The notes below the pieces were generated by a model. It worked only from the letters and a program-made list of their open reading frames with translations. It ran no database searches and was not told where the DNA came from. Source: an uncultured Haliea sp. (lineage in GTDB: Bacteria > Pseudomonadota > Gammaproteobacteria > Pseudomonadales > Halieaceae). From it: a stretch of 64,000 bases of DNA. Made by a program: the position numbers and the translations under genes. The DNA is taken from positions 186,001 to 250,000 of the forward strand of contig CAJXUQ010000002.1 in NCBI GenBank assembly GCA_913061145.1. Direction: 5' to 3'. Positions 1 to 13,022 of this stretch are shown in pieces (the first letter of the stretch is position 1; each line of letters starts with the position of its first letter).

Positions 1-786
1 CGGCGCGGCTTCACCCCGGCCTCTATCCGCACGTTTTGCGACATGATCGGCGTGACCCGCAGTGACGGCGTGGTTGATGTCGCGATGCTGGAGCACGCGA
101 TTCGCGATGACCTGAACACCAACGCGCCGCGCGGCATGTGCGTGCTGAACCCGCTCAAGGTGATTCTCACCGATCTTCCGGAGACGCATCGCGAGGTCCT
201 CACTGCGGCTTCGCACCCCAGCCGTGAAGATCTGGGTAGCCGCGAGGTGCCCTTTACCCGGGAGCTGTATATCGACGCGGATGATTTCCGGGAAGAAGCC
301 AACAAGAAATACAAGCGGCTTGTGCTGGGCAAGCGCGTTCGCCTGCGCAATGCCTATGTCATCGAAGCGACAGAGGTGGTCAGGGATGAGGCGGGAGAGA
401 TCATCGCCGTACATGCGCGGACCATTCCGGGAACGCTCGGTAACGATCCGGCCGATGGCGTCAAACCCAAGGGCGTGATCCAGTGGGTGTCTGCCAGCGA
501 GGGGCGTCGTGCCACCGTGCGCCTTTATGACCGCCTGTTCACCCATGAAGCACCGGATCGAGGCGATAACGCCTATCTTGAGTGGCTGAATCCCGAGTCT
601 CTGCGGGTCGTCGAGGGTGCCTGGATTGAACCGGCACTCGCCGCCGCGAGGCCCGAGCAGGGCTTTCAGTTTGAGCGGGAGGGTTACTTCGTTGCTGACC
701 GCTACGACCACACTGCGGAAAATCCGGTGTTCAACCGCACGATAGGGCTGAGGGACACCTGGGCTGCGGCAGGGGAGGATGCATGA
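1..786 (+). CDS. glnS: Glutaminyl-tRNA synthetase, C-terminal part (5' end outside window)
   Basis: The reading frame is open from the first base and ends at a TGA overlapping the next gene, leaving 261 residues. GlnS charges tRNA-Gln with glutamine in the cytoplasm. The visible part starts in the end of the catalytic core ([13 protein letters not shown] resembles the family's RRRGYTPASIR segment) and continues into the two beta-barrel anticodon-binding domains, with [17 protein letters not shown] and the late EREGYFV segments typical of bacterial GlnS. The HIGH and KMSKS motifs would lie upstream of the window. The stop overlaps the cysS start by four bases (ATGA), so the two synthetases are probably cotranscribed and translationally coupled. 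Confidence 0.95.
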
Positions 787-2165
787 GCATTGTGCTGTAC
801 AACACCCTGAGTGCGCGCAAGGAGGTATTTGAGCCACTGCAGCCCGACCGTGTCACCATGTACGTGTGTGGCCCTACGGTCTACAACCTGGCGCACATCG
901 GTAACGCGCGCCCGGTGGTGGTGTTCGATGTTCTGTTCCGGCTGCTGCAGACCCAGTACCGCGAGGTGATCTACGCACGCAACATCACTGATGTCGATGA
1001 CAAAATCATCGCCGCCGCGCGGGACAGCGGGCGCAGCATCGAGGACGTCACCGCGGAGTTTACCAACAAGTATCGCGAGGATATGGCGGCATTGAACGCC
1101 TTGCCGCCGACGCTCGAGCCACATGCCACCCACCACATCGACGGCATGATTGCGCTCACCGAAACCCTGCTGGCCAAAGGGCATGCCTATGTCAGCGAGG
1201 GTCATGTGCTGTTTGCCGTGGAATCCATGCCGGACTACGGCCGCCTTTCCGGGCGCTCACTGGACGATATGCTGGCAGGAGCGCGTGTGGAGGTCGCCGA
1301 TTACAAGCGCCATCCGGGTGACTTCGTGCTCTGGAAACCGGCAGCTGCGGAGGATCCCGGCTGGGACAGCCCCTGGGGGCGCGGCCGGCCAGGGTGGCAC
1401 CTCGAGTGTTCTGCCATGATACGCGCACACCTTGGCGAGACCATTGATATTCACGGCGGCGGCCGTGACCTGATTTTTCCGCACCACGAAAACGAGATCG
1501 CGCAAAGCCGCTGCGCTCACGGTGGTGATTATGTGCGCTACTGGATGCATAACGCGTATCTGGATATCGACGGTGAAAAGATGTCCAAGTCGCTGGGCAA
1601 TTTCCGCACGGTGCGCGAACTGCTGGCTCATTATCGCGGGGAGGTGCTGCGTTTCGCGCTGCTCTCGGCACACTACCGCTCACCGCTGAACTTCTCCACC
1701 GATCTTCTGGCGCAGGCGGAGGCCAACCTGGGCGGATTTTACACCGCTTTGCGCGGAGTGCAGGACGTGCCCGTGCCAGAGAGCGATGATATAGATCTCT
1801 CGGCCGAGGGGTTCTATTGCGCCCTGGAAGATGACCTGAACACGCCACTGGCGATTGCCGAACTGCACGCCCTGGCCAAGCAGTTGCACAAGGCCGCCGA
1901 GGCCGACAAGCCCCGTTTGAAGGCGCGCCTGCTGGCGGCCGGAAAATTGCTGGGCATACTGCAGCAGGAACCAGAGGCGTGGCTGCAGGGCGGCGCAGCG
2001 GCCGATGACATTGCGCCGGAGGCGATTGAAGCGCTTATCGCCGAGCGCCAGGCAGCGAAACAGGACAGGGACTTTGCACGCGCCGATGCGATTCGTCAGC
2101 AGCTGCTGGACGCGGGCGTTGAACTGGAGGATGGCCGCGAGGGGACCCTCTGGCGCAGGGCCTGA
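783..2165 (+). CDS. cysS: Cysteinyl-tRNA synthetase
   Basis: This is a full-length 460-residue class I aminoacyl-tRNA synthetase that charges tRNA-Cys. The class I signature appears as HIGN at residues 38-41 and KMSKS at about 266-270. Cys29 in the VCGPTVY segment, the cysteine in WHLECSAM, and His/Cys residues in [11 protein letters not shown] match the family's zinc ligands that select cysteine. The C-terminal third has the helical anticodon-recognition domain. The start overlaps the glnS stop (ATGA). The gene ends only 14 bases from the convergent folD stop, and no convincing hairpin lies between them. Length matches the family norm of about 460. Confidence 0.97.
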
Positions 2166-3596: not shown

Positions 3597-3673
3597 GGGG
3601 GTATAGCTCAGCTGGATAGAGCAACGGCCTTCTAAGCCGTAGGTCGAGGGTTCGAGTCCTTCTGCCCCTGCCA
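3597..3673 (+). tRNA. tRNA-Arg (anticodon TCT), integration target
   Basis: The acceptor strand GGGGGTA (3597-3603) pairs with TGCCCCT using two G-T wobbles, and CCA is encoded at 3671-3673. The anticodon stem ACGGC/GCCGT encloses CTTCTAA with anticodon TCT. The T arm has GTTCGAGTC. Its 3' half, from the anticodon stem to one base past CCA, is duplicated exactly at 12771-12818, which marks it as the attachment site of the integrated element. The gene itself is left intact. Confidence 0.97.
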
Positions 3674-3674
3674 C
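3627..3674 (+). repeat. attL: 48-bp att direct repeat inside tRNA-Arg
   Basis: This 48-base segment, from the anticodon stem of tRNA-Arg to one base beyond CCA, recurs without mismatch at 12771-12818 in the same orientation. The flanks diverge immediately (one mismatch, then scattered identity). This is the classic footprint of a tyrosine-integrase element that recombines within a tRNA gene and restores it. Confidence 0.95.
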
Positions 3675-3735
3675 TAACCTATTGAAAATAAACAATAATA
3701 TTTGCAATTCGAATTTTTACTGTCTCCATGAATCT

Positions 3736-3757
3736 CTCGTAAGTGCAATGTAAGTGC
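3736..3757 (+). repeat. Putative integrase arm-type sites, left copy
   Basis: The 22-base sequence contains two GTAAGTGC octamers spaced 11 bases start to start (GTAAGTGCAATGTAAGTGC) preceded by CTC. An identical copy in the same orientation lies at 12643-12664 near the other end. Short repeats just inside both att sites are expected for arm-binding sites of lambda/P4-type integrases. The role is inferred. Confidence 0.6.
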
Positions 3758-4159
3758 GGGCGGGGTTTGTTGGCGGCAGTGTTGGCGGTAATTTGCCTTC
3801 CCGCTGCTCTCAGCCCTGAAGCCAGCCGATAACAGGACAGCCGAGATACGCCATGAAGCCGCAGAGCGTGTTGCGAGGGAAGAACGCGAGGATAGGCGGG
3901 CGCTGTGCAAGTTGATGCTAGTCACGCTGTGTTGATGGGTATCATGATTGGCTTTGCGGCAGGATTACTGTTGACGGTTGGGTAGGGAGAGGCTCGCCAA
4001 GGGACCTTTGTTGCCGTCGGAAAGGAGCTCAACGTTTGTTGCGGTGTACGCAATGCATGCTTAGTGTGTTGGGAGGGTTTTTGCGCCTTCTTCACACGCA
4101 TCATTGGGTATGCTGCGGTCGGCTCCTAGCGGTTAACATAGTGCTCGTGCTATGATTGC

Positions 4160-4179
4160 ATATAACAATAATGTGATAT
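4160..4179. promoter_or_regulatory. Imperfect palindrome upstream of toxin gene (candidate operator)
   Basis: ATATAACA-ATAA-TGTGATAT is an inverted repeat with 7 of 8 pairs matching, ending five bases before the toxin ATG in AT-rich sequence that could include the -10 region. Autoregulation of the operon by the Xre-type antitoxin binding such a palindrome is usual for HigBA families. No Shine-Dalgarno sequence is evident before the toxin start. Confidence 0.4.
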
Positions 4180-4184
4180 AGTTT

Positions 4185-4565
4185 ATGGCTAGGCGTAAAA
4201 TATACGACTACATTGATGATGATGGTGAGAGCTGTCTTGAGGTGTGGATACAAAGCCAGAGGATGCCTGGCTTGGACGCCGTGATTGATGCTCGACTTCA
4301 GGGCCTTGAGGTTGTAGATGATCTAAGGCGTCCTGCGTGGGACAAATTAACTGGCAACTGCATGGGCCTTTATGAGGCTAGGATTGATTACAAAGGTGTG
4401 TGCGTTCGAGTTATCTGTTGTTTTGGCCCTGGTCAGGGTGAAATCACTATCTTGGGCGCCGCGACCAAGCGCGGCCGAACATTTAACCCAAGAAACATTT
4501 GTCAGGTTGCGCTAGGTAGAAAGGCGCGAATCACGGAAAAAGGAAGAACTAGTGAGCACTTTTAG
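4185..4565 (+). CDS. HigB/Gp49-like RelE-superfamily toxin
   Basis: The 126-residue protein resembles phage Gp49/HigB toxins (RelE/ParE superfamily, usually ribosome-dependent mRNA interferases). The order is an N-terminal YDYIDDDGES strand, a helical segment ending GLEVVDDLRRPAWDKL, the GLYEARIDYKG..VRVICCF strand pair, and a KRGRTFNPRNI C-terminal segment similar to the family's KK...P..EI tail. The gene opens a toxin-first trio, overlapping the antitoxin by 14 bases. The trio is visibly more AT-rich than the rest of the element and lies on the opposite strand, which suggests separate acquisition. The activity is inferred from resemblance only. Confidence 0.75.
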   Translation: MARRKIYDYIDDDGESCLEVWIQSQRMPGLDAVIDARLQGLEVVDDLRRPAWDKLTGNCMGLYEARIDYKGVCVRVICCFGPGQGEITILGAATKRGRTFNPRNICQVALGRKARITEKGRTSEHF

Positions 4566-5049
4566 TAAGAGATTTTTGAAGATCATCGGAAAGCTGTCAG
4601 ATAAAGCTTACCGCGATGCTTATGTAGAAGCGCATATTGACAGTGGACTAGCATTCCAAATAAGGGATATTCGTAAGAATAGAGGGTTGACGCAAGCTGA
4701 GTTGGCAGATTTGATAAACACTAAACAAGCATCTATTAGCAGATTTGAAGATCCTAACTATGGGAAATACACCATAGAGTCTCTTAAAAAAATGGCTTCT
4801 GTTTTTGACGTGGCATTGATGGTTAGGTTTGTGCCATTTTCTGAGTTGGCCAGAAAAACTAGTTTTATGAATAGCGAAGATATTGCCGTCCCAGCGTTTT
4901 CTGAAGATCCAGGCCTCAGATTTCAGTCTCAAAAAGATGATGTCGTAGTTTCAATAGACGTAGAAGGTGTGACGCATTCGAGTCAACCAGTCCGCTTCGA
5001 TCACAACAGAAGCACCGTTACAACCACGCAATTTGAAGTGGCACTTTAA
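4552..5049 (+). CDS. Xre-family antitoxin (HigA-like) with C-terminal extension
   Basis: Residues about 35-95 form a classic Xre helix-turn-helix (IRDIRKNRGLTQAELADLI, then QASISRFEDP), as in HigA antitoxins that neutralise HigB and repress their own operon. The start is GTG at 4552, preceded by AGGAAG and overlapping the toxin gene by 14 bases. After the HTH the protein continues about 70 residues (165 total), longer than a minimal HigA of about 100. This tail is rich in acidic and hydrophobic residues. Antitoxin tails of this sort can serve toxin binding or, in toxin-antitoxin-chaperone systems, chaperone dependence. The stop is two bases from the next ATG, so all three genes are coupled. 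Confidence 0.8.
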   Translation: MSTFSKRFLKIIGKLSDKAYRDAYVEAHIDSGLAFQIRDIRKNRGLTQAELADLINTKQASISRFEDPNYGKYTIESLKKMASVFDVALMVRFVPFSELARKTSFMNSEDIAVPAFSEDPGLRFQSQKDDVVVSIDVEGVTHSSQPVRFDHNRSTVTTTQFEVAL

Positions 5050-5051
5050 TC

Positions 5052-5522
5052 ATGGCTAGTGTTGTTTATTCCTGTTTATGTCATGGCCTCGCTATTGATC
5101 AGCGCTCGAACAGAGTTTCGATTTTTGACATCATTGAAAACGTGAGAACATCAATTTCGGTTCTGAAATCTCAGAGCGACGCAAATGGAGAAAAAATTCC
5201 GAAAGAAGGCGATTGGATTCTGTCCCAAGTAAAAGCTTCAATAATTACGCAATTCTCTAGATCTCAACTCAAAGACCCTGAGGAAGCTAAGGCAAGAATA
5301 CGCATTGTTTCCGACGATGGACAAACCTTTAACTCAGATATTGATGTCGAGGTAGATTTAAAAACATCGATTTCAAATCGCATAATTCATGATTTAGAGA
5401 CTGTTCCGCTGTGTTTTCGTGTCGGGGATCACTATCAGTTTTTTGTGGTTGAATTCCTTCAGAATGAGGAGTGGGTGGAGGCTTACCGTACACCGCTCAT
5501 TGTTAGGTTTGTCGAAGATTAG
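5052..5522 (+). CDS. Third protein of the toxin-antitoxin operon, unknown function
   Basis: This 156-residue cytosolic-looking protein starts two bases after the antitoxin stop, with no signal peptide or membrane segment. The pattern of alternating short hydrophobic stretches (VYSCLCHGLAID, RVSIFDIIENV, ASIITQFSR, ARIRIVSDD, LCFRVGDHYQFFVV, TPLIVRFVED) suggests an all-beta sandwich. The opening SCLCHGLAIDQ...NRVSIFDIIE resembles small uncharacterised proteins of the DUF6941 kind; that is a recollection, not a search result. Position after a HigBA-like pair is where SecB-like chaperones sit in TAC systems, but I see no SecB sequence signature. It could be a third regulatory component, a chaperone analogue or a phage sensor. 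Confidence 0.6.
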   Translation: MASVVYSCLCHGLAIDQRSNRVSIFDIIENVRTSISVLKSQSDANGEKIPKEGDWILSQVKASIITQFSRSQLKDPEEAKARIRIVSDDGQTFNSDIDVEVDLKTSISNRIIHDLETVPLCFRVGDHYQFFVVEFLQNEEWVEAYRTPLIVRFVED

Positions 5523-5568
5523 TATTGCTATCGATTTCGCCCTTTTCCCACTTCAGTTGAAGCGATCG

Positions 5569-6807
5569 TCAGGTTGGGTTGAGCGTTCCAATGGAACCAT
5601 CACGCTTTGAAAGCGCTTCGAGACTGTAGTTCTGTTGCTGGAGATAGGGGTACTTGCCTCCAGGCACCTTGTCGAACCCTAGCTTGGCTCGGGCCTCATC
5701 CGGGGCCAGAATGCCAGCCCCTACAGCCCTCGCGAGACTTTCCATTTGAGTCGCGCTATCCATGCGCAGTAGCCCATCCAGATCAAGTTGAACGCGCTTA
5801 CCCTGGGGCACCATAAGCCCTTCGTCGAGGCTGGTTTCCATGTCTTCGATTAGGATTTGCAGGCACTGGCTGTAGTACATTGAGTGCAGGGCTTCGATGT
5901 TGTTGTGGGTCGGCATCGGGCCCACGCCCACCATATAACCGGGAACGTGGAACGTTGAGCACACGGTTTCAGCCGACCACTTGAGATGCTCCAAAAGTTG
6001 GCTGTCCACGTTCGACATGCGCATTGGCTCATACTTCAGCCCATCGCCCACGACTGCAATGCGGCCAGACCTTTCACCGGTAAAGTTGCCCTCCCAGTAT
6101 TCCTTCAGCCTGATTGCAGTCTGATCTGAGATTGAACCGGGTGCGGCCAGTATCCCACCAGGGCTTGAAGCGTTCGCAAAAAACCCTTTGGCATTCTCCT
6201 GAATGGTCAGGCCAATACGCGAGGGCACGGCGCTGGCATAGATGGGCGGCAAGCCAATCAGCGGATGGTAAATGCAGTTCCAGCGGTCATGGATTATCTC
6301 GCGGGCCGGGACTGTTAGCTCAGACGTGTCCACGCCAGCAAGTCGCTGTTGCGATAGCTTGTAGAACACGTCACCGCTATCTGACACCAGCGGAGTCACC
6401 CGCAAAGGGTCAAGGACGTGCAGGCCAGTCACCCGGCCAGCGCTGCGCACCTTCAGGGCGTAGGTGTTGCCGTGAATCAACTTCGATTCGATCCAGTGCT
6501 GTTTGAATCGGATATGATTCTGGTAGCCATTGGGCTTGCGCAGCACTTCAGCCGCCTGATTTTGTGCCTCGCGCCAGATCCCGCCTGTCTTTTCCTGCAC
6601 CGTGGGGCGCAGCTTGGCAATGTCGCCGGAAATCAGGGAAACACACGCAAAGGTAGCCGACTGGCTGAGTACACTTTCAGTGCTCTGGTAAGCCGCGTCT
6701 GACTGCCACGCACCCGGACGAAAATCAAAGATTCGCGTCCAGGCACGATCATTCACAGTCTCACCGCCTTTTTGTACCTGCTTTGAGCCAAAGGGCCACA
6801 ACTTCAC
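5569..6807 (-). CDS. HK97-family phage portal protein
   Basis: The portal forms the dodecameric ring at one head vertex through which DNA is packaged. The 412-residue protein matches HK97-type portals: the N-terminal SATFACVSLISGDIAKL block, the HWIESKLIHGNTYAL segment, LHVLDPLRV, then FFANASSPGGIL, and the C-terminal NNIEALHSMYYSQCL and ILAPDEARAKLGFDKV segments. The start is GTG at 6807, preceded by a G-rich site and 11 bases after the capsid gene stop. It is the last gene of the leftward operon. A portal implies DNA packaging, yet no terminase is present in the element, so packaging would need a helper. Confidence 0.92.
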   Translation of the reverse strand: MKLWPFGSKQVQKGGETVNDRAWTRIFDFRPGAWQSDAAYQSTESVLSQSATFACVSLISGDIAKLRPTVQEKTGGIWREAQNQAAEVLRKPNGYQNHIRFKQHWIESKLIHGNTYALKVRSAGRVTGLHVLDPLRVTPLVSDSGDVFYKLSQQRLAGVDTSELTVPAREIIHDRWNCIYHPLIGLPPIYASAVPSRIGLTIQENAKGFFANASSPGGILAAPGSISDQTAIRLKEYWEGNFTGERSGRIAVVGDGLKYEPMRMSNVDSQLLEHLKWSAETVCSTFHVPGYMVGVGPMPTHNNIEALHSMYYSQCLQILIEDMETSLDEGLMVPQGKRVQLDLDGLLRMDSATQMESLARAVGAGILAPDEARAKLGFDKVPGGKYPYLQQQNYSLEALSKRDGSIGTLNPT

Positions 6808-6818
6808 GAGATGCCCCC

Positions 6819-8156
6819 TTAGGTGGAGATTGCGCCGCCATAGTCAGCGTCATTGATCCACGCCACAGCCGACTCTCTGCGGCGGGCGAAGTTAATGGAC
6901 TGCACAACCTTAAAGGCGGTCGATTCAGTCTGGAACATGCTCACAGTCTTACCAGTCGGCGCGGTAGGGGTGTCGGTGTCGGCACCCGGCGCGCTGTCCA
7001 TTTCAATTGTGGCTTGCTGGGACATTGATACTTCCATCGTGCCCATGCCGATACGGTAAATGTCCGAGGGCTTCAACATGATGACGTGATTGGCGTTCAC
7101 GTTGTCGCCGGTCACAACAGGCTTCTTGAATATCGTTCCACCGTCCTCCGAAATATCCGGGAACTCGTACTGGTCGAGGGCGTTGCGCAGCATGGAAAGC
7201 CCAGTGGCCAGGGCAGGGTTCATGATGACCCATTGTCCGCCTGAATTGCGTGCGGTCGTGAACCGATACATCATTTCCTTGAAATCATTGGCCACGGCAT
7301 CCCCGTCCGTACCTGCGGAAGTAGTCGCGGGAATGTTGTACAGGATACCGGCAGGACTAACCCCAGGCACCGCAGCCAGGGCACTGATAAACGTGGAGTC
7401 GATACGCTGCCGTGCAGCCTCTACCAGCGCGTCACGCACCAGCATTTCGGCTGAAGGGCTACTGTCGCGCAGCCACTCATTCGACGCCACAGCGATTGTG
7501 GCGACCTTCAGCGGGGTCAGGGTCACATCATTGAAGTCTGCGGAGGTAACCGGAATTGCTTTGGACTCGCCTACCCAATAGCCGGTTGCTGCACCGTCCT
7601 GCCCCTTGATGGTGATGTTGGCGGGCACCTCGCGCAGCGGCAACTGGTTGTAGATGGTCTTGCCGTACAGATACTCTTGAAAGTCTCCCATCCAGGTATC
7701 GCGGGAAACAAGCTCGTTACCCCACTCACCAGCGCCTGAACCGCCACCTGTTACATCGGCCTTGATGACCTCAACCACGCGGGGGGATGACTTGCCCCAG
7801 CGCTCGTTGGCAATCGCCACGGGGGAGCGTTGATGCAGGTTACCAAGTGCCTTGGCGATCACCATGCGCGTGAAATTCTGCCCCTGAAAATCCTCATCGC
7901 GTGAACGGTGTTTCAGAATGGCGGGGGCACCTTTGATCGGGGTTGCTGTTCTCATCTGCTCAGTCTCAAGTTGCTTGTAGCGTGAAATATCTGAATCGAG
8001 CTGCACAATCTCGCCTTGCAGCTCGTCAAATTCGGATTGCTCAACCTCGGCCAGCGTGCGGCCTTCGCTGGCGGCGATCCGCGTGATCTGATTTCGACGC
8101 TCTACGCGCAAGTCCTTGTTGTAGAGCATGTCCGCAATGTGTTCGGAAATATTCAT
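6819..8156 (-). CDS. HK97-fold major capsid protein
   Basis: The 445-residue protein begins with a charged, coiled-coil-prone region (about residues 15-70, ERRNQITRIAAS...EVEQSEFDELQGEI) like the delta/scaffold domain of HK97 gp5. The capsid fold follows: GGSGAGEWGNELV, YLYGKTIYNQLPLREV, a YWVGESKAIPVT segment, KVATIAVASNEWLRDSS, then WVIMNPALATGLSML and the C-terminal FARRRESAVAWI strand. The ATG overlaps the upstream stop (ATGA) with GAGG seven bases before it. HK97-type heads normally need a prohead protease; none is visible here, so maturation may be unprocessed or helper-supplied. Confidence 0.92.
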   Translation of the reverse strand: MNISEHIADMLYNKDLRVERRNQITRIAASEGRTLAEVEQSEFDELQGEIVQLDSDISRYKQLETEQMRTATPIKGAPAILKHRSRDEDFQGQNFTRMVIAKALGNLHQRSPVAIANERWGKSSPRVVEVIKADVTGGGSGAGEWGNELVSRDTWMGDFQEYLYGKTIYNQLPLREVPANITIKGQDGAATGYWVGESKAIPVTSADFNDVTLTPLKVATIAVASNEWLRDSSPSAEMLVRDALVEAARQRIDSTFISALAAVPGVSPAGILYNIPATTSAGTDGDAVANDFKEMMYRFTTARNSGGQWVIMNPALATGLSMLRNALDQYEFPDISEDGGTIFKKPVVTGDNVNANHVIMLKPSDIYRIGMGTMEVSMSQQATIEMDSAPGADTDTPTAPTGKTVSMFQTESTAFKVVQSINFARRRESAVAWINDADYGGAIST

Positions 8157-8368
8157 TTCTTGCCTCGTTCTAAGTGGGGCGCAAGCCGTTCTGCAAACAG
8201 CCGCATCAGATCGGACTCGGTGAGCAAGGGATCAAGCTCCCCCGGTTCGTAGTAAGCCGCCGCCACGTTGTTCGCAGCACGCTGGAACTCGTAGCCATAG
8301 ATATTGCTGTGCTTGGCCACCAAAAGGGCCATGTCTCTTTCAAGTGCCTGAACGTCGCTGTGTGCCAT
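8153..8368 (-). CDS. Small protein upstream of capsid gene, unknown
   Basis: The 71-residue protein is rich in Ala, Glu and Leu, with no Cys and no membrane segment. Two predicted helices (VQALERDMALLVAKH and DLMRLFAERLAPHLE) flank a FQRAANNVAAAYYEPGEL stretch. It is translationally coupled to the capsid gene (ATGA), which suggests a role in head assembly or its regulation. I do not recognise the family. AGGA lies 10 bases before the ATG. Confidence 0.65.
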   Translation of the reverse strand: MAHSDVQALERDMALLVAKHSNIYGYEFQRAANNVAAAYYEPGELDPLLTESDLMRLFAERLAPHLERGKK

Positions 8369-8441
8369 GATAAAAATGTCCTGTATCTACTATCATCGTA
8401 TCAACGGGGTCAGAGTTTCTCGTGCCACGAATTCCCCGTAT

Positions 8442-8747
8442 TCACGGAATTCCCCGAAGTGCGCAAAAGTTTTTAAACAAAATTGGCGATTTGCTCCAGG
8501 GAGTAGGACGCCTGTTGCCGCGCTGGATAAAATCCACCTCATTGCGGCCCTCGGTCACCTGTTTGCGCAGTGCGCTCGCAGTCAGCCCAAGCAATGCAGC
8601 CGCGTCAGTCTCACGGACGAAGTTACCCGGCCAGATTTCAATGCCGTGCTCGCTGGCGATCTGTTTGGCGTGTTCAATGCGTTCCGGGGCGGCATCGTCC
8701 ATGCTGGCGCGTTGTGTATACCCACAGTTCGGGCAGGTTGTTTGCAT
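8442..8747 (-). CDS. Zinc-ribbon plus helix-turn-helix small protein
   Basis: The 101-residue protein starts with CPNCGYTQ, a half zinc-ribbon knuckle. After a charged linker comes an excisionase/MerR-like helix-turn-helix (TDAAALLGLTASALRKQVTEG) followed by a wing-like GNRRPTPW segment. Such proteins are usually DNA-binding regulators or packaging accessories. It is preceded by AAGGTG six bases before the ATG and lies just after the iteron region, at the head of the structural genes. It might control capsid gene expression or act as a small-terminase-like recognition protein. That is inference only. Confidence 0.65.
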   Translation of the reverse strand: MQTTCPNCGYTQRASMDDAAPERIEHAKQIASEHGIEIWPGNFVRETDAAALLGLTASALRKQVTEGRNEVDFIQRGNRRPTPWSKSPILFKNFCALRGIP

Positions 8748-8807
8748 ACGGTCACCTTAAAAAACTACAAGTTAATAGAAACGATTCTCCGGGCGCGGTG
8801 TCCGGAT

Positions 8808-9176
8808 TCACGTTCTCTCTTCTGCGACCACCCCCCCCATGTATCCATGACCTGAATTGTGGATACGAGAAATTAACTTTGGTCGCGGTTTACGCATCAT
8901 TGCCTCGCGAATCGACAGGGACCCCCCGTGCCTGGTGCTATGCGCCCATGTCTTCGACACTATCGCCGATTTGCTGGCCTTGGCTGTCTCGGTTGCGAAG
9001 CCTTCGGGTCTTCCCTCACCATCTCGGCCTCGGACGCTTAGTTTCGGCTCAACTTGCGCCGATACTCTTTGCCGCTCCCTCGCCTCCCACAACTCCTTCC
9101 GCTTGGTTACATGCTCCGCGACCTCGGTGACCCGCGCTCTGTTCTGAGGCGGGTTTAAAGGGATTTGAAGGTACAT
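8808..9176 (-). pseudogene. ParB-like protein fragment
   Basis: The frame from the ATG at 9176 encodes 122 residues whose middle (RVTEVAEHVTKRKELWEAR, then a charged loop and GFATETAKAS) resembles the segment of phage/plasmid ParB-like nuclease-domain proteins reading 'AEHLAERKRIYEA ... FTADTAKKTG'. The N-terminal ParB/Srx nuclease domain and the full C-terminal part are missing, and the remaining sequence is low-complexity. I read it as a remnant, now partly replaced by the iteron region. It could instead be an expressed small protein. Confidence 0.4.
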
Positions 9177-9197
9177 AGGTGGTGGTAATGTAGGAGT

Positions 9198-9332
9198 GGT
9201 GTAAAAACGACACCTGTAGATGCTCAAAACAGGGGCCAGCGGTGTCAAAAACGACACCTGTAGCGCCTGAAATCGGGTCATATGGTGTAAAAACGACACC
9301 TGTAAGGGGTCTAGCGGTATCGTTTTTCCACC
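9198..9332 (+). repeat. Iteron array (three direct copies plus one inverted degenerate copy)
   Basis: Copies of GGTGTAAAAACGACACC followed by TGTA start at 9198, 9241 (one extra base, GGTGTCAAAAA) and 9284, so the period is exactly 43 bases, about four helical turns. Each unit is itself a small palindrome (GGTGT/ACACC). The sequence at 9316-9332, read on the minus strand, is GGTGGAAAAACGATACC, a degenerate copy in the opposite orientation. Spacing, phasing and adjacency to a winged-helix gene point to initiator binding sites. Confidence 0.75.
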
Positions 9333-9348
9333 GTTAGAAATCGAAACT

Positions 9349-9729
9349 TCAGGCTTCATGGTTGGCTTGCTCCCACTCGTTGCTCGGTGCTTTGTAGGCC
9401 CACGGGAGCCAGGTCAAACGCCATGTACGGGTTCTGGATTTGGCGCGCGAGCAGAACAGGCTGTCGTCCACCAGCTTGATGAAACCGGCTTCACGGAGTT
9501 CATTAAACGCATTCATGGCAGTCTTTCGTGAACATGGGACTGTTGCCTCCGCCTCGCGGACGCCGAAGCCTACAGGCACATCAGGACGCCAATGCACCTG
9601 CATTTGCAGGAGCAGCACCTTCGCTTGCACTGACAGCCCCAGATAGGCCGGTGACTTCAACAGCCGCCGTTGTATGGCCACAACTCCGCCGCGCTTGTCG
9701 AAAGGCAGTGATGTCTTTCCCTTTGCCAT
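9349..9729 (-). CDS. Winged-helix protein, candidate replication initiator
   Basis: The 126-residue protein has a winged-helix pattern: helices in AIQRRLLKSPAYLGLSVQAKVLLLQM, a recognition helix around CSRKTAMNAFNELREAGFI, and a beta wing ending RTRTWRLTW. This layout is common in plasmid Rep N-domains and small satellite proteins. I chose the ATG at 9729 because it overlaps the upstream TAA as TAATG, a reinitiation arrangement; an in-frame ATG at 9753 is possible. The iterons begin 17 bases beyond its stop codon. The initiator role is inferred from this adjacency. Confidence 0.65.
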   Translation of the reverse strand: MAKGKTSLPFDKRGGVVAIQRRLLKSPAYLGLSVQAKVLLLQMQVHWRPDVPVGFGVREAEATVPCSRKTAMNAFNELREAGFIKLVDDSLFCSRAKSRTRTWRLTWLPWAYKAPSNEWEQANHEA

Positions 9730-10019
9730 TAGCGAATCCGCACCAGTCGCCATTCGTGCGACATTGAAGGCTCGCCAAACCTGTTGCGGATTGGTCTATC
9801 TGGCATATTGGCGATGATGGTGTAACCGCGCTTTTGTAGTGCTGGGCGTATGAAGTTCGCAGCGGCAGATATGTTGCCGATTGCACAGTCGCGGGCGATG
9901 TCGCCAGTAAGCGCGGAGTCATTCACGACTAAATAATCGGCCAGTCGATGGGCCTGCCTGCTTTTTGTTTCCCCCTTTGCCGCCTCTACTGCCGACTGAA
10001 TGTCTGATTGTGTTACCAT
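9729..10019 (-). CDS. Small helix-turn-helix-like protein
   Basis: From the ATG at 10019 the protein is 96 residues. It has a charged N-terminal helix (SDIQSAVEAAKGETKSRQAHRLADYL), then DSALTGDIARDCAIGNISAAANFIRPALQKRGY, which looks like a compact winged-helix DNA-binding unit. I reject the longer upstream start because it would read through a hairpin (10052-10074) and adds unconserved-looking sequence. It is coupled to the next gene by TAATG. A role in replication control or transcriptional regulation is plausible; the family was not recognised. Confidence 0.6.
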   Translation of the reverse strand: MVTQSDIQSAVEAAKGETKSRQAHRLADYLVVNDSALTGDIARDCAIGNISAAANFIRPALQKRGYTIIANMPDRPIRNRFGEPSMSHEWRLVRIR

Positions 10020-10051
10020 GCGCGTGTCCTCCCGTTTAGGACAATTCACTG

Positions 10052-10079
10052 AACGCCAGCCGCAAACTGGCGTTTTTTT
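10052..10079 (+). terminator. Intrinsic terminator pointing rightward inside the leftward operon
   Basis: AACGCCAG (10052-10059), a 7-base loop and CTGGCGTT (10067-10074) form an 8-bp stem followed on the plus strand by seven T. Read on the minus strand, the direction of the surrounding genes, the hairpin has an A-run before it and no T-run after it. It should therefore stop only plus-strand transcripts. Confidence 0.7.
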
Positions 10080-10293
10080 ATGCCTTGCGTGAAAGTCTGA
10101 GTGCGCCCCTACAGGCATCTGCAACCATCGTGAGGTCATCTAGGTCGAATGCGATGGTCCAGGGCCTGCCCTTAATCCGGCTCAGAACTTCCACGTCATC
10201 AACCAAAATTCGGCAGGTGTATTGCCCGCGCTCAACGGTGACGCTGCGAGTAATTCCGGGCGCGATGCTGGGAAGTAAAATTGTCTTCTTCAT
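10078..10293 (-). CDS. Small conserved-looking protein of the satellite, unknown
   Basis: The 71-residue protein runs from the ATG at 10293, which has GGAG nine bases upstream and lies two bases after the previous stop. The sequence alternates strands (KTILLPSIAPGITRSVTVERG, YTCRILVDDVEVLSRIKG, WTIAFDLDDL) and ends in a basic helix, suggesting a small beta-rich fold. No membrane segment or metal motif is seen and I recognise no family. Confidence 0.6.
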   Translation of the reverse strand: MKKTILLPSIAPGITRSVTVERGQYTCRILVDDVEVLSRIKGRPWTIAFDLDDLTMVADACRGALRLSRKA

Positions 10294-10295
10294 GG

Positions 10296-10571
10296 TTACG
10301 CGCTCCGCTGATAGGGTCGGAACTGCCACAAGGGGCAGGCGGGCGCACTGCAATCGCGGATTGATTCACGAAAGCCGGGTTCTATGTGATCCGCAGTGCA
10401 GCCCATGCAATGCGCACACATGGCGTCTAAAGCGCCTCTTAGCGACTTAGAATTGCCAATGTTCCGCACTACGGGGTTGTATTCGGGTCGGGTGCTGATC
10501 GTTGAATCTAGCGCGCTGGAAGGGGCTTCTTGCCGGTCGCTTGATGCGGATGAGGGGGCTTCAACGTTCAT
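10296..10571 (-). CDS. Cysteine-rich small protein (putative zinc-binding)
   Basis: The 91-residue protein has a low-complexity Ser/Ala N-terminus and a C-terminal half with CAHCMGC and, about 20 residues later, CSAPACPLW followed by RPY. The CxxCxxC plus CxxxxCPLW pattern is familiar from small phage and phage-satellite proteins, where it likely binds zinc. It overlaps the upstream HTH gene by ATGA. A regulatory or DNA-binding role is inferred. Confidence 0.65.
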   Translation of the reverse strand: MNVEAPSSASSDRQEAPSSALDSTISTRPEYNPVVRNIGNSKSLRGALDAMCAHCMGCTADHIEPGFRESIRDCSAPACPLWQFRPYQRSA

Positions 10572-10786
10572 TGCTTGGCCTCCGCTTCAATTGCGTCGGC
10601 GAACTCACGGTCTTGGCGAGCGGTGATGATTCGCTTGCGCCCAAGCTTGGTACTCTTCAGCTTCCCGGAGGCGATCAGGTCATAAGTGAAATTGCGACCG
10701 AATCCCCAGCGAGCGCGCCATTCTTCAATGGAGAATGCTTGCTTCTCCACCTCGGGCAGCGAGTGGTTGGCATTGGTTTTTGACAT
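10568..10786 (-). CDS. Excisionase/AlpA-like helix-turn-helix protein
   Basis: The 72-residue protein contains a single HTH of the excisionase/AlpA kind: FSIEEWRARWGFGRNFTYDLIASGKLKSTKLGRKRI. In P4-like and PICI elements, AlpA/Xis-type proteins activate integrase expression and excision. It begins the downstream gene string after a promoter-like gap with two inverted repeats (10795-10864), and it overlaps the next gene by ATGA. Its role as satellite activator or excisionase is inferred from size, fold and position. Confidence 0.7.
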   Translation of the reverse strand: MSKTNANHSLPEVEKQAFSIEEWRARWGFGRNFTYDLIASGKLKSTKLGRKRIITARQDREFADAIEAEAKQ

Positions 10787-10794
10787 TGTGTGAC

Positions 10795-10864
10795 CCCCGT
10801 AAAAGGTTGTTTCTGTTTACGGGGTAAATCTAAATGGGGGAGTGCAGCTAACCGTGTTAGCTGC
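10795..10864. promoter_or_regulatory. Two inverted repeats before the excisionase-like gene
   Basis: CCCCGTAAA (10795-10803) and TTTACGGGG (10816-10824) form a perfect 9-bp inverted repeat with a 12-base gap, starting nine bases upstream of the 10786 ATG. A second perfect repeat, GCAGCTAAC-CGT-GTTAGCTGC, occupies 10844-10864, just past the stop of the 163-residue protein gene. The first suits an operator for the HTH protein. The second may be an operator or a hairpin ending the integrase transcript, though it lacks a T-run. Confidence 0.5.
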
Positions 10865-10875
10865 GAACGAACTTT

Positions 10876-11367
10876 CTACTTATCGCAGTTTGGCCAATAG
10901 GTTTTTTGGAATGTGGAGTGCTTGAAAGCGTGCTCTTCACAGGTGTCTTCGTCGAAAACCACATAGTGTTGCTGAGCAACCTTCTTTGCGGTTCCCTTGC
11001 GGGATAGGACTAAGTTGTCAAATGGCTGGTTGAGCCATCCTTGAAGAAACTCGTGGAAAGTTGCGCCCTCACGCTTTGAATAGCGCATGCGGTTTTGGAT
11101 GCGCTTTTTGACCTCAGATTCGCCTCCCGGTCGAGGGCGTAAAGCCGTGAAGAGGTTTCTAAGCCTACTTTCCTCAGCTGTGACCATCGCGTCAGCTATC
11201 CGATCTAAAATCTCTCCACCCTTGCGCTTTAAGTCATCATTGGGGCTGTTGCGCATTGCTACAGCCTGATCTAACAGTTGGCGAGCGATTGCTTTTAAGG
11301 ACGCGGTTTCTGATCCTTCATCTTCAAACCCATATCGGACACGGTACCTCTTTTTTCCATCCGTCAT
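10876..11367 (-). CDS. Hypothetical protein coupled to integrase
   Basis: The 163-residue, highly charged, largely helical protein begins at an ATG overlapping the integrase stop (ATGA). Its N-terminus (KKRYRVRYGFEDEGSETASLKAIARQLLDQAV) and a long amphipathic central helix (GEILDRIADAMVTAEESRL) suggest a coiled-coil element. The C-terminus has three cysteines and CEEHAFKHS. I recognise no family. Coupling to the integrase suggests a role in integration, excision or host takeover. Confidence 0.6.
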   Translation of the reverse strand: MTDGKKRYRVRYGFEDEGSETASLKAIARQLLDQAVAMRNSPNDDLKRKGGEILDRIADAMVTAEESRLRNLFTALRPRPGGESEVKKRIQNRMRYSKREGATFHEFLQGWLNQPFDNLVLSRKGTAKKVAQQHYVVFDEDTCEEHAFKHSTFQKTYWPNCDK

Positions 11368-12635
11368 GACTGACCTCCGAATGCGCGATCCAGCGCGGCA
11401 GCTTTGTGGTCTGTGCTCAAGTGAGCGTATACGAGGGTCATCTTGATGTCGGAGTGCGTCATCAGCTCCCGGACGGTGTTGATGTCCACGCCTGCCGTGA
11501 CCAGCCGCGAAGCGAAGGTATGCCGCAAGTCATGGAACCGAAAGCCCTTAATGTTCGCGTCATTAAGAACAGCCTCGAAGCCCTTCTTAACGTCCGTTAG
11601 CGGGCCGTTGGAGATAGGAGAGGGGAACACATAGGCAGAGTCGCCGCGTTGTTTGTAGCACTGTTTCAGCACCTTGTGGGCCTCCGCAGACAGTGGCAGT
11701 ACAGCAGGCTCTAACTTTTTCCCTGCCTTGCGGCGGGCGTGTGAGGTTTTGCCGATTATCTTGCGAATTTGTCTGCGCTCCAGATCCACGTGGTCCCACC
11801 TCAAGCTAAACAGGTCTCCACGTCGCAGCCCTGTATTCAGTGCCACTAGCGTCAAGGGTTTGAGGTGATCTGCATAGTGGTCGGCTGGAATGGCAGGGGA
11901 GAGCGCCTTCCCTCGCTCTCGTTGCCATGCCCGCATACGGTCTCTGGCATCGCGCAATTCCTGCTCTCTGGTATCCAGGGCAGAACGCAGCCGCTTTTCC
12001 TCAGCATCGGATAGGAACCGCACCTTGGCCTCGCCCTCGTTTTGCTTGAGCGTGCCCTTGACCCGGACCTGCCCCAACTGGTGGCCGGGGATCATCTTGT
12101 TGTTGACTGCGTGGTTGAGCACGGCCTTAAGGTAGCTCAGTTCCCGGCGCTGGGTCTCAAGAGAGACCTTGCTGCGCTCCCGCCGCCACTTCGCCATGTC
12201 CAGCTCTGAGATATCCGTCATGGGCTTGTCGAGGATGTGGTCGAAGACCTTGCCGATCCGGGCGAGCATGTCCTTGTGGCTGGCGATGTTGGCTTGAGCG
12301 TGAACCTTAAACGGGCCTTCCAGATAGCTGCGCAGGGTGGAATCCTTCAGCACCTTCTTCTGTCTGCGCTCAGCCTGGAAGTCATGCCCGCCTGCGGCCA
12401 TGCCCGTGATCTCTTTTGCGCGCTCGCGAGCGAACGCCAGGGTTAGCTGGCTGGCATCTCCTATGCGCTCTCGCTTGCCTCGGCTAATCTCGACATAGAA
12501 GGTCTTGCGGCCACTCGGTTGCACTCGAACGAGTAGACCCTTAACGGAGGATTTGCCCCCGTTGTCTCGTACCTCATAGGCTGAGGTTTTGGGGGCCAGG
12601 TTCGGTATGGTCTTTTCGGTTAGGGTTGCAGCCAT
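11364..12635 (-). CDS. Tyrosine-recombinase integrase (P4-like architecture)
   Basis: The integrase inserts and excises the element at the tRNA-Arg att site. From the ATG at 12635 (GAGGT upstream) it is 423 residues, with an N-terminal DUF4102-like arm-binding domain (VRDNGGKSSVKGLLVRVQPSGRKTFYVE), a SAM-like core-binding domain (about 100-200) and the catalytic domain. Catalytic residues are Arg271 in TGLRRGDL, His368 and Arg371 in HDLRHTFAS, His394 in LMTHSD and Tyr403 in LVYAH, so the set is complete. The gene reads away from attR. The start chosen avoids the upstream arm-site repeat being coding. Confidence 0.95.
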   Translation of the reverse strand: MAATLTEKTIPNLAPKTSAYEVRDNGGKSSVKGLLVRVQPSGRKTFYVEISRGKRERIGDASQLTLAFARERAKEITGMAAGGHDFQAERRQKKVLKDSTLRSYLEGPFKVHAQANIASHKDMLARIGKVFDHILDKPMTDISELDMAKWRRERSKVSLETQRRELSYLKAVLNHAVNNKMIPGHQLGQVRVKGTLKQNEGEAKVRFLSDAEEKRLRSALDTREQELRDARDRMRAWQRERGKALSPAIPADHYADHLKPLTLVALNTGLRRGDLFSLRWDHVDLERRQIRKIIGKTSHARRKAGKKLEPAVLPLSAEAHKVLKQCYKQRGDSAYVFPSPISNGPLTDVKKGFEAVLNDANIKGFRFHDLRHTFASRLVTAGVDINTVRELMTHSDIKMTLVYAHLSTDHKAAALDRAFGGQS

Positions 12636-12642
12636 ATCGCAC

Positions 12643-12664
12643 CTCGTAAGTGCAATGTAAGTGC
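12643..12664 (+). repeat. Putative integrase arm-type sites, right copy
   Basis: This is identical over 22 bases and in the same orientation to 3736-3757. It carries two GTAAGTGC octamers 11 bases apart. It lies 8 bases upstream of the integrase start and 106 bases inside attR, so integrase binding could also repress its own gene. Confidence 0.6.
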
Positions 12665-12770
12665 AAGGAAGTATAACACTGGCAAATAGTAACAAACATT
12701 AAAAAACTTAAGCGATTGAAATATATAGAGAAAAATATCTAAGCTATTGATGCGTAAGGGGTAAAAAACC

Positions 12771-12818
12771 GCCTTCTAAGCCGTAGGTCGAGGGTTCGAG
12801 TCCTTCTGCCCCTGCCAC
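12771..12818 (+). repeat. attR: duplicated tRNA-Arg 3' half
   Basis: This is a perfect 48-base copy of 3627-3674, comprising the anticodon stem-loop 3' part, variable loop, T arm, acceptor 3' strand and CCA of tRNA-Arg. It marks the right boundary of the element. Sequence 3' of it (CAACCCCGGG) should be the original DNA that followed the tRNA gene. Confidence 0.95.
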
Positions 12819-13022
12819 CAACCCCGGGTGCATTCCGGTCACATAGGTAACAGTTTATTCCGGGAACCGGCAGGCTTCCAACGGCCCCGGAAGACAGCCT
12901 TCTCCCGATTCCCCTGAACAAACTGGCCACTAAAACCTCGATTGTGTACCCTGTGGTTTTGTTCGGCGATTGGTGTCCCCGCGCTGTCCTTCCGACACCT
13001 ATTGTGCAACGGAGCCTCCATC

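Follow-up and report, generated by a model that had tools for sequence, protein, structure and literature searches.

Published toxin-antitoxin-chaperone (TAC) systems are described with SecB-like chaperones as their third component (PMC5105189, PMC11618068). TAC antitoxins rely on the SecB-like chaperone because of their variable C-terminal extension, and grafting this tail transfers the requirement (PMC5105189). CmdTAC is triggered by a phage capsid protein that dislodges the chaperone, whereupon ClpP degrades the antitoxin and the toxin becomes free (PMC11618068). In HigBAC, the major tail protein of phage lambda acts as the trigger (reviewed in PMC11980606).

Here, we compare these systems with a three-gene toxin-antitoxin (TA) locus found in a 64,000-nucleotide (nt) stretch of DNA, called the window below. 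On balance, we favor the interpretation that the locus is a TAC-like TA system, carried as cargo by a satellite, with a protein other than SecB as the partner of the antitoxin tail.

A coupled trio of genes inside a satellite

The trio comprises the following features:

4185–4565, plus strand: toxin, 126 amino acids (aa), Gp49/HigB-like (RelE superfamily), predicted ribosome-dependent mRNA endonuclease
4552–5049, plus strand: antitoxin, 165 aa, GTG start
4552–4905, plus strand: antitoxin core, residues 1–118, with the N-terminal region, the Xre helix-turn-helix (HTH) and an FVPFSEL...VPAF motif
4906–5046, plus strand: variable C-terminal tail of the antitoxin, residues 119–165, ending in TTTQFEVAL; candidate chaperone-addiction-like region
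5052–5522, plus strand: third gene, 156 aa, modeled Ig-like beta-sandwich; proposed partner or stabilizer of the antitoxin tail

A sequence-only reading of the window had described three coupled ORFs at these positions, AT-rich and on the strand opposite to their neighbors, and all of this was confirmed. The toxin and antitoxin ORFs overlap by 14 nt, and the stop codon of the antitoxin is separated from the start of the third ORF by a 2-nt gap. The order toxin, antitoxin, third gene was seen again in other loci (see below), and the arrangement is thus not due to chance. GC contents are 49% (toxin), 41% (antitoxin) and 41% (third gene), and the corresponding GC3 values of 0.47, 0.37 and 0.38 are below those of the satellite genes for portal, capsid and integrase (0.65–0.69) and of host genes (0.74–0.75). 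The trio is encoded on the plus strand, and the capsid, portal and integrase genes are encoded on the minus strand.

The surrounding element is delimited and equipped as follows:

3597–3673: tRNA-Arg gene
3623–3679, no strand: attL, 3' half of the tRNA-Arg gene, 57-nt direct repeat, 96% identical to 12767–12823
3736–3757 and 12643–12664, no strand: perfect 22-nt repeat CTCGTAAGTGCAATGTAAGTGC, inside both element ends; candidate integrase arm-binding site
5569–6807, minus strand: satellite portal protein (Phage_portal, E=7e-81)
6819–8156, minus strand: satellite major capsid protein (Phage_capsid, E=2e-18)
10568–10786, minus strand: AlpA-like excisionase/regulator (HTH_17, E=2.5e-4, below cut-off)
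11364–12695, minus strand: satellite tyrosine integrase (Phage_integrase, E=1.6e-28)
12767–12823, no strand: attR, partial tRNA copy, 57-nt direct repeat partner of attL

The integrated element is 9.2 kb long, lies in the tRNA-Arg gene and is bounded by the 57-nt direct repeats. The trio had been placed at the edge of a satellite. It is indeed near the left end, close to the left attachment site, but it lies within the element and not merely beside it, since the attachment repeats bracket it. As a sign of anti-phage defense, this location is only suggestive. Specific PADLOC models matched none of the three proteins, and the antitoxin gave general HTH matches only.

The satellite (3623–12823) encodes its own portal and capsid, and no terminase was recognized among the satellite ORFs examined. 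Three 31-nt direct repeats starting with AAAAACGACACCTGTA are located at 9203–9319, with spacings of 44 and 42 nt, and adjoin an HTH_36/RepA_N-like ORF (9349–9753, weak matches); they are possible iterons of a replication origin. Relatives of the portal protein were tried as a guide to the cargo slot and were set aside, because their gene clusters turned out to be phage-like and did not represent satellites.

A HigB-like toxin and an Xre antitoxin with a tail

The window toxin matched Pfam Gp49 with E=0.0013, which is below the curated cut-off. The Gp49 match was found in 8 of the 11 toxin family members scanned (window protein included), and the best solved structure for the family profile was M. 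tuberculosis HigB1 (E=0.012). The proposed catalytic residues of HigB1 include E66, R68, R77 and K95 (PMC9098466). Residues E64, R66 and R75 of the window toxin, invariant in the family, match E66, R68 and R77 of HigB1. The catalytic Lys/Arg position is occupied by R96, preceded by K95, and relatives have Lys there. These family matches, the HigB1 profile match and the retained catalytic positions place the toxin in the RelE/Gp49 superfamily. Judged by family and residues, the protein probably has ribosome-dependent mRNA endonuclease activity.

The antitoxin matched HTH_3 (E=9e-9), which together with the overlap with the toxin gene identifies it as a downstream Xre/HTH antitoxin. The proposed toxin-first, HigBA-like pair is thereby corroborated, with a Gp49/HigB toxin upstream of an overlapping Xre antitoxin that extends in a C-terminal tail beyond its conserved core. 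The length of about 70 residues given earlier for this tail holds when counted from the end of the HTH, but only about 47 residues follow the conserved core. The C-terminus of the tail, FEVAL, is non-polar; in CmdTAC, the last residues of the CmdA tail are LAA, a ClpXP signal (PMC11618068).

Long antitoxin tails go together with a coupled third gene

Relatives were searched with the window antitoxin and its Thiothrix unzii relative as queries. Eight loci were fetched from genome contigs, three from viral contigs, and one more was obtained by genome search. Beyond the window, 13 related loci with the TA core (counting L003 and L025) were available from Proteobacteria, Acidobacteria and viral contigs. 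The toxin gene nearly always overlaps or abuts the antitoxin gene in these 13 loci; the viral loci L018 and L019 start inside or after the toxin gene, and the toxin is therefore partly or not visible there. In most of the loci, a third ORF begins at an offset of −89 to +9 nt from the antitoxin stop.

The antitoxin core (residues 20–118) shows a mean pairwise identity of 44% among 13 aligned antitoxins. The tails, by comparison, are mutually unrelated; their similarity to one another does not exceed that between shuffled sequences (mean shuffle Z 0.18). A coupled third gene accompanies 12 of the 13 long-tailed antitoxins (window included) versus none of the six tail-less or short-tailed ones, which are those of four cyanobacterial plasmids (L004–L007), L009 and L017. 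The association between tail length and third gene is significant (Fisher p=2.6e-4; treating the four similar cyanobacterial loci as a single one gives 0.007), and it could have other causes. The tail of about 47 aa in the window antitoxin is absent from the two-gene relatives (cyanobacterial, L009).

Two loci depart from the general pattern. At L015 (3079–3588), a long tail of 52 aa, strongly basic (RRNRVRRALER), occurs without a third gene; its function may be another one, for example nucleic-acid binding. At L017, the antitoxin tail is short and a DUF3467-like gene (1577–1942) lies about 290 nt upstream of the TA pair. The third component may have moved there, or may have been lost from the operon.

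The third position has different occupants

The third protein of L013 is SecB-like, with matches to NCBIfam SecB (E=1.1e-4) and Pfam SecB (E=0.0012) that both fall short of the curated cut-offs, and for that of L010 a resemblance to SecB-like proteins was seen only by eye. In L011 and L012, the position is taken by DUF3467 proteins (E=1e-11 and 5e-9). Five loci (L003, L014, L016, L018 and L019) encode members of one loosely conserved, unnamed family of about 100 aa, which has no profile similarity to the DUF3467 set. L020 and L025 encode other, unplaced proteins. The L025 protein (731–1372, minus strand), from a different proteobacterial genome, has 213 aa and no family match, and its gene overlaps the antitoxin stop by 4 nt. 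DUF3467 genes in the other genomes examined showed no TA linkage, and a survey of the open-access literature (subscription journals being outside its scope) found nothing that links DUF3467 or DUF6941 to toxin-antitoxin systems.

Since L013 has a SecB homolog in the same slot, next to a homologous TA core, the link between the layout and TAC rests on comparison as well as on analogy. The parallel to TAC drawn in the sequence-only reading thus held. Judged from these sequences, the third part looks exchangeable between loci.

These data bear on the possibility that the window contains an ordinary two-gene type II TA system, and that the third ORF is independent cargo on a shared transcript, such as a DUF6941-type ligand-binding Ig-like protein. 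The tail-less relatives are indeed two-gene systems without a third gene, DUF6941 genes in Acidobacteria are not located beside TA genes, and the third protein of the window has no family match. We nevertheless consider this explanation unlikely, in view of the 12/13 versus 0/6 distribution of coupled third genes, the tight spacing, which is as in translational coupling, and the presence of SecB in the same slot in L013.

Far less probable is direct binding of the third protein to the toxin instead of the tail, whether as a second antitoxin or as a toxin co-factor. A separate third antitoxin is known from tripartite TA systems such as HipBST (PMC10627512, PMC9325769), but across our relatives the toxin is conserved and the third proteins are unrelated; it is the tails, not the toxin, that vary together with third-gene presence.

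The third protein of the window is modeled as an Ig-like beta-sandwich

The third protein had no match in Pfam, NCBIfam, PHROGs, PADLOC or PDB sequences. No SecB match was obtained in Pfam, NCBIfam, PHROGs or PDB sequences either, in line with the earlier remark that it lacks a SecB signature; we therefore call the trio a TAC-like variant and not a TAC member. Convincing relatives were found neither among 196 relatives nor in 398 genomes of the phylum, plasmids, phages, IMG/VR and genome contigs. Two weak matches (E 0.013 and 0.038) were discarded. Because the third protein has no detectable relative, its pairing with the window tail was not seen twice.

When folded alone with AlphaFold2, the third protein reached a pLDDT of 33.6. 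With distant DUF6941 rows as alignment, which presumes kinship, pLDDT was 73.1 and pTM 0.64. The resulting model is all-beta, with ten strands and short helical turns only, and the DUF6941 alignment may have dictated its fold. Its best structural match was the Wzt carbohydrate-binding domain (Z 8.6); many Ig-like domains followed with Z of 7–8, none of which stands out, as is the range of a common arrangement. SecB was absent among the structural matches listed. A viral structure library gave two matches with E<0.001, to unnamed or uncharacterized proteins and with low TM-scores. The third protein is likely, by this model, an Ig-like beta-sandwich, and the earlier suggestion of a beta-sandwich is sustained at the model level (pLDDT 73).

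The relation to DUF6941 (PF22091) was considered separately. By eye, an LC near the N-terminus, V-S-x-F, RI..DG and G-x-Y are collinear in the third protein, and the protein models well with DUF6941 sequences. The Pfam PF22091 model gave no match to it. Scored with a DUF6941 profile built from 11 members, it was no better than shuffles or random ORFs, and direct assignment to DUF6941 was rejected on these sequence statistics. An artificial DUF6941-like probe had no matches in plasmids. Kinship with DUF6941, whose genes in Acidobacteria differ in context as described above, is unproven.

The modeled fold is pertinent to a further explanation, according to which the third protein is a sensor or co-repressor sitting on the tail of the DNA-bound antitoxin, where it would tune repression or detect a ligand or phage protein and would not serve folding. 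Resemblance to ligand-binding Ig-like domains such as that of Wzt would suit such a role, and sensor swapping would give many different third proteins and tails around one core, as observed. The structural matches, however, are within the range of a common arrangement, and the sole third proteins of known type in this position, the SecB-like ones, act as antitoxin chaperones (PMC5105189, PMC11618068). We regard the sensor explanation as improbable.

Proposed mechanism

The conserved core, the unrelated tails, the occurrence of the third gene with long tails and the presence of SecB among the occupants together suggest TAC logic with another helper. In the TAC-like system that we favor, the Xre core of the antitoxin would, as expected from its family, bind and neutralize the toxin and repress the operon. 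The variable tail would make the antitoxin dependent on the third protein, which would bind the tail and guard the antitoxin against misfolding or proteolysis. The third protein would thus do the job of a SecB-like chaperone with a different fold, probably an Ig-like beta-sandwich. Its withdrawal, for example by a phage protein, would cost the cell the antitoxin and leave the toxin to arrest translation. We infer physical binding, stabilization and triggering in the trio by analogy with TAC systems. A chaperone role shared by third proteins outside the SecB cases, the folds of which differ and are mostly unsolved, is likewise an assumption. The sequence-only reading had raised the possibility of a different three-part defense system. 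It was correct that the third protein is not detectably SecB, but the proposal was overstated, and the data agree better with a TAC-like system whose third part has been exchanged.

More tentatively, and with slightly less than even confidence, we propose that tail and third protein form a swappable cassette, with SecB-like proteins, DUF3467 proteins, the family of about 100 aa and Ig-like folds as dedicated partners. The exchanged partners perhaps act as sensors for different phage proteins. If the cassette proposal is true, TAC would belong to a wider class of partner-addicted toxin-antitoxin systems, and antitoxin addiction to a helper would have evolved by module exchange, not solely via SecB. 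The loci would then offer natural chimeras for testing how helpers sense phage, and several families of unknown function, DUF3467 and possibly also DUF6941 among them, would become candidate antitoxin helpers.

Comparison with known systems

Among the relatives are the two-gene Gp49/HTH pairs of the cyanobacterial plasmids (L004–L007). Their toxins and antitoxin cores are homologous to those of the window and are encoded in the same order by overlapping genes, but their antitoxins of about 103 aa have no tail, and no third gene is coupled to them. The closest antitoxin (55% identity over the core) is encoded by Thiothrix unzii pTunz2 (L003), together with a coupled toxin and third gene; its tail is another one, and its 95-aa third protein belongs to another family.

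With CmdTAC and HigBAC of E. coli, the window trio has in common the three-gene TA organization, an antitoxin with a variable C-terminal region and a phage-linked context. These two systems differ from it in their SecB-like chaperones and demonstrated phage triggers. In addition, CmdT is an ADP-ribosyltransferase (PMC11618068), and the window toxin is Gp49/HigB-like.

The founding TAC system, HigB1-HigA1-Rv1957 (SecB-TA) of M. tuberculosis, differs from the window trio in its third protein and its tail: no similarity to SecB was detected in the third protein of the window, which is modeled as an Ig-like beta-sandwich, and the tail of the window antitoxin is unrelated in sequence. Two hallmarks of TAC are present in the window, namely the C-terminal extension of the antitoxin and a third gene in the operon, at 2-nt spacing. 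Moreover, the two loci share the order toxin, antitoxin, third gene, a Gp49/HigB toxin related to HigB1 with conserved proposed catalytic residues, and an Xre antitoxin with a variable C-terminal extension.
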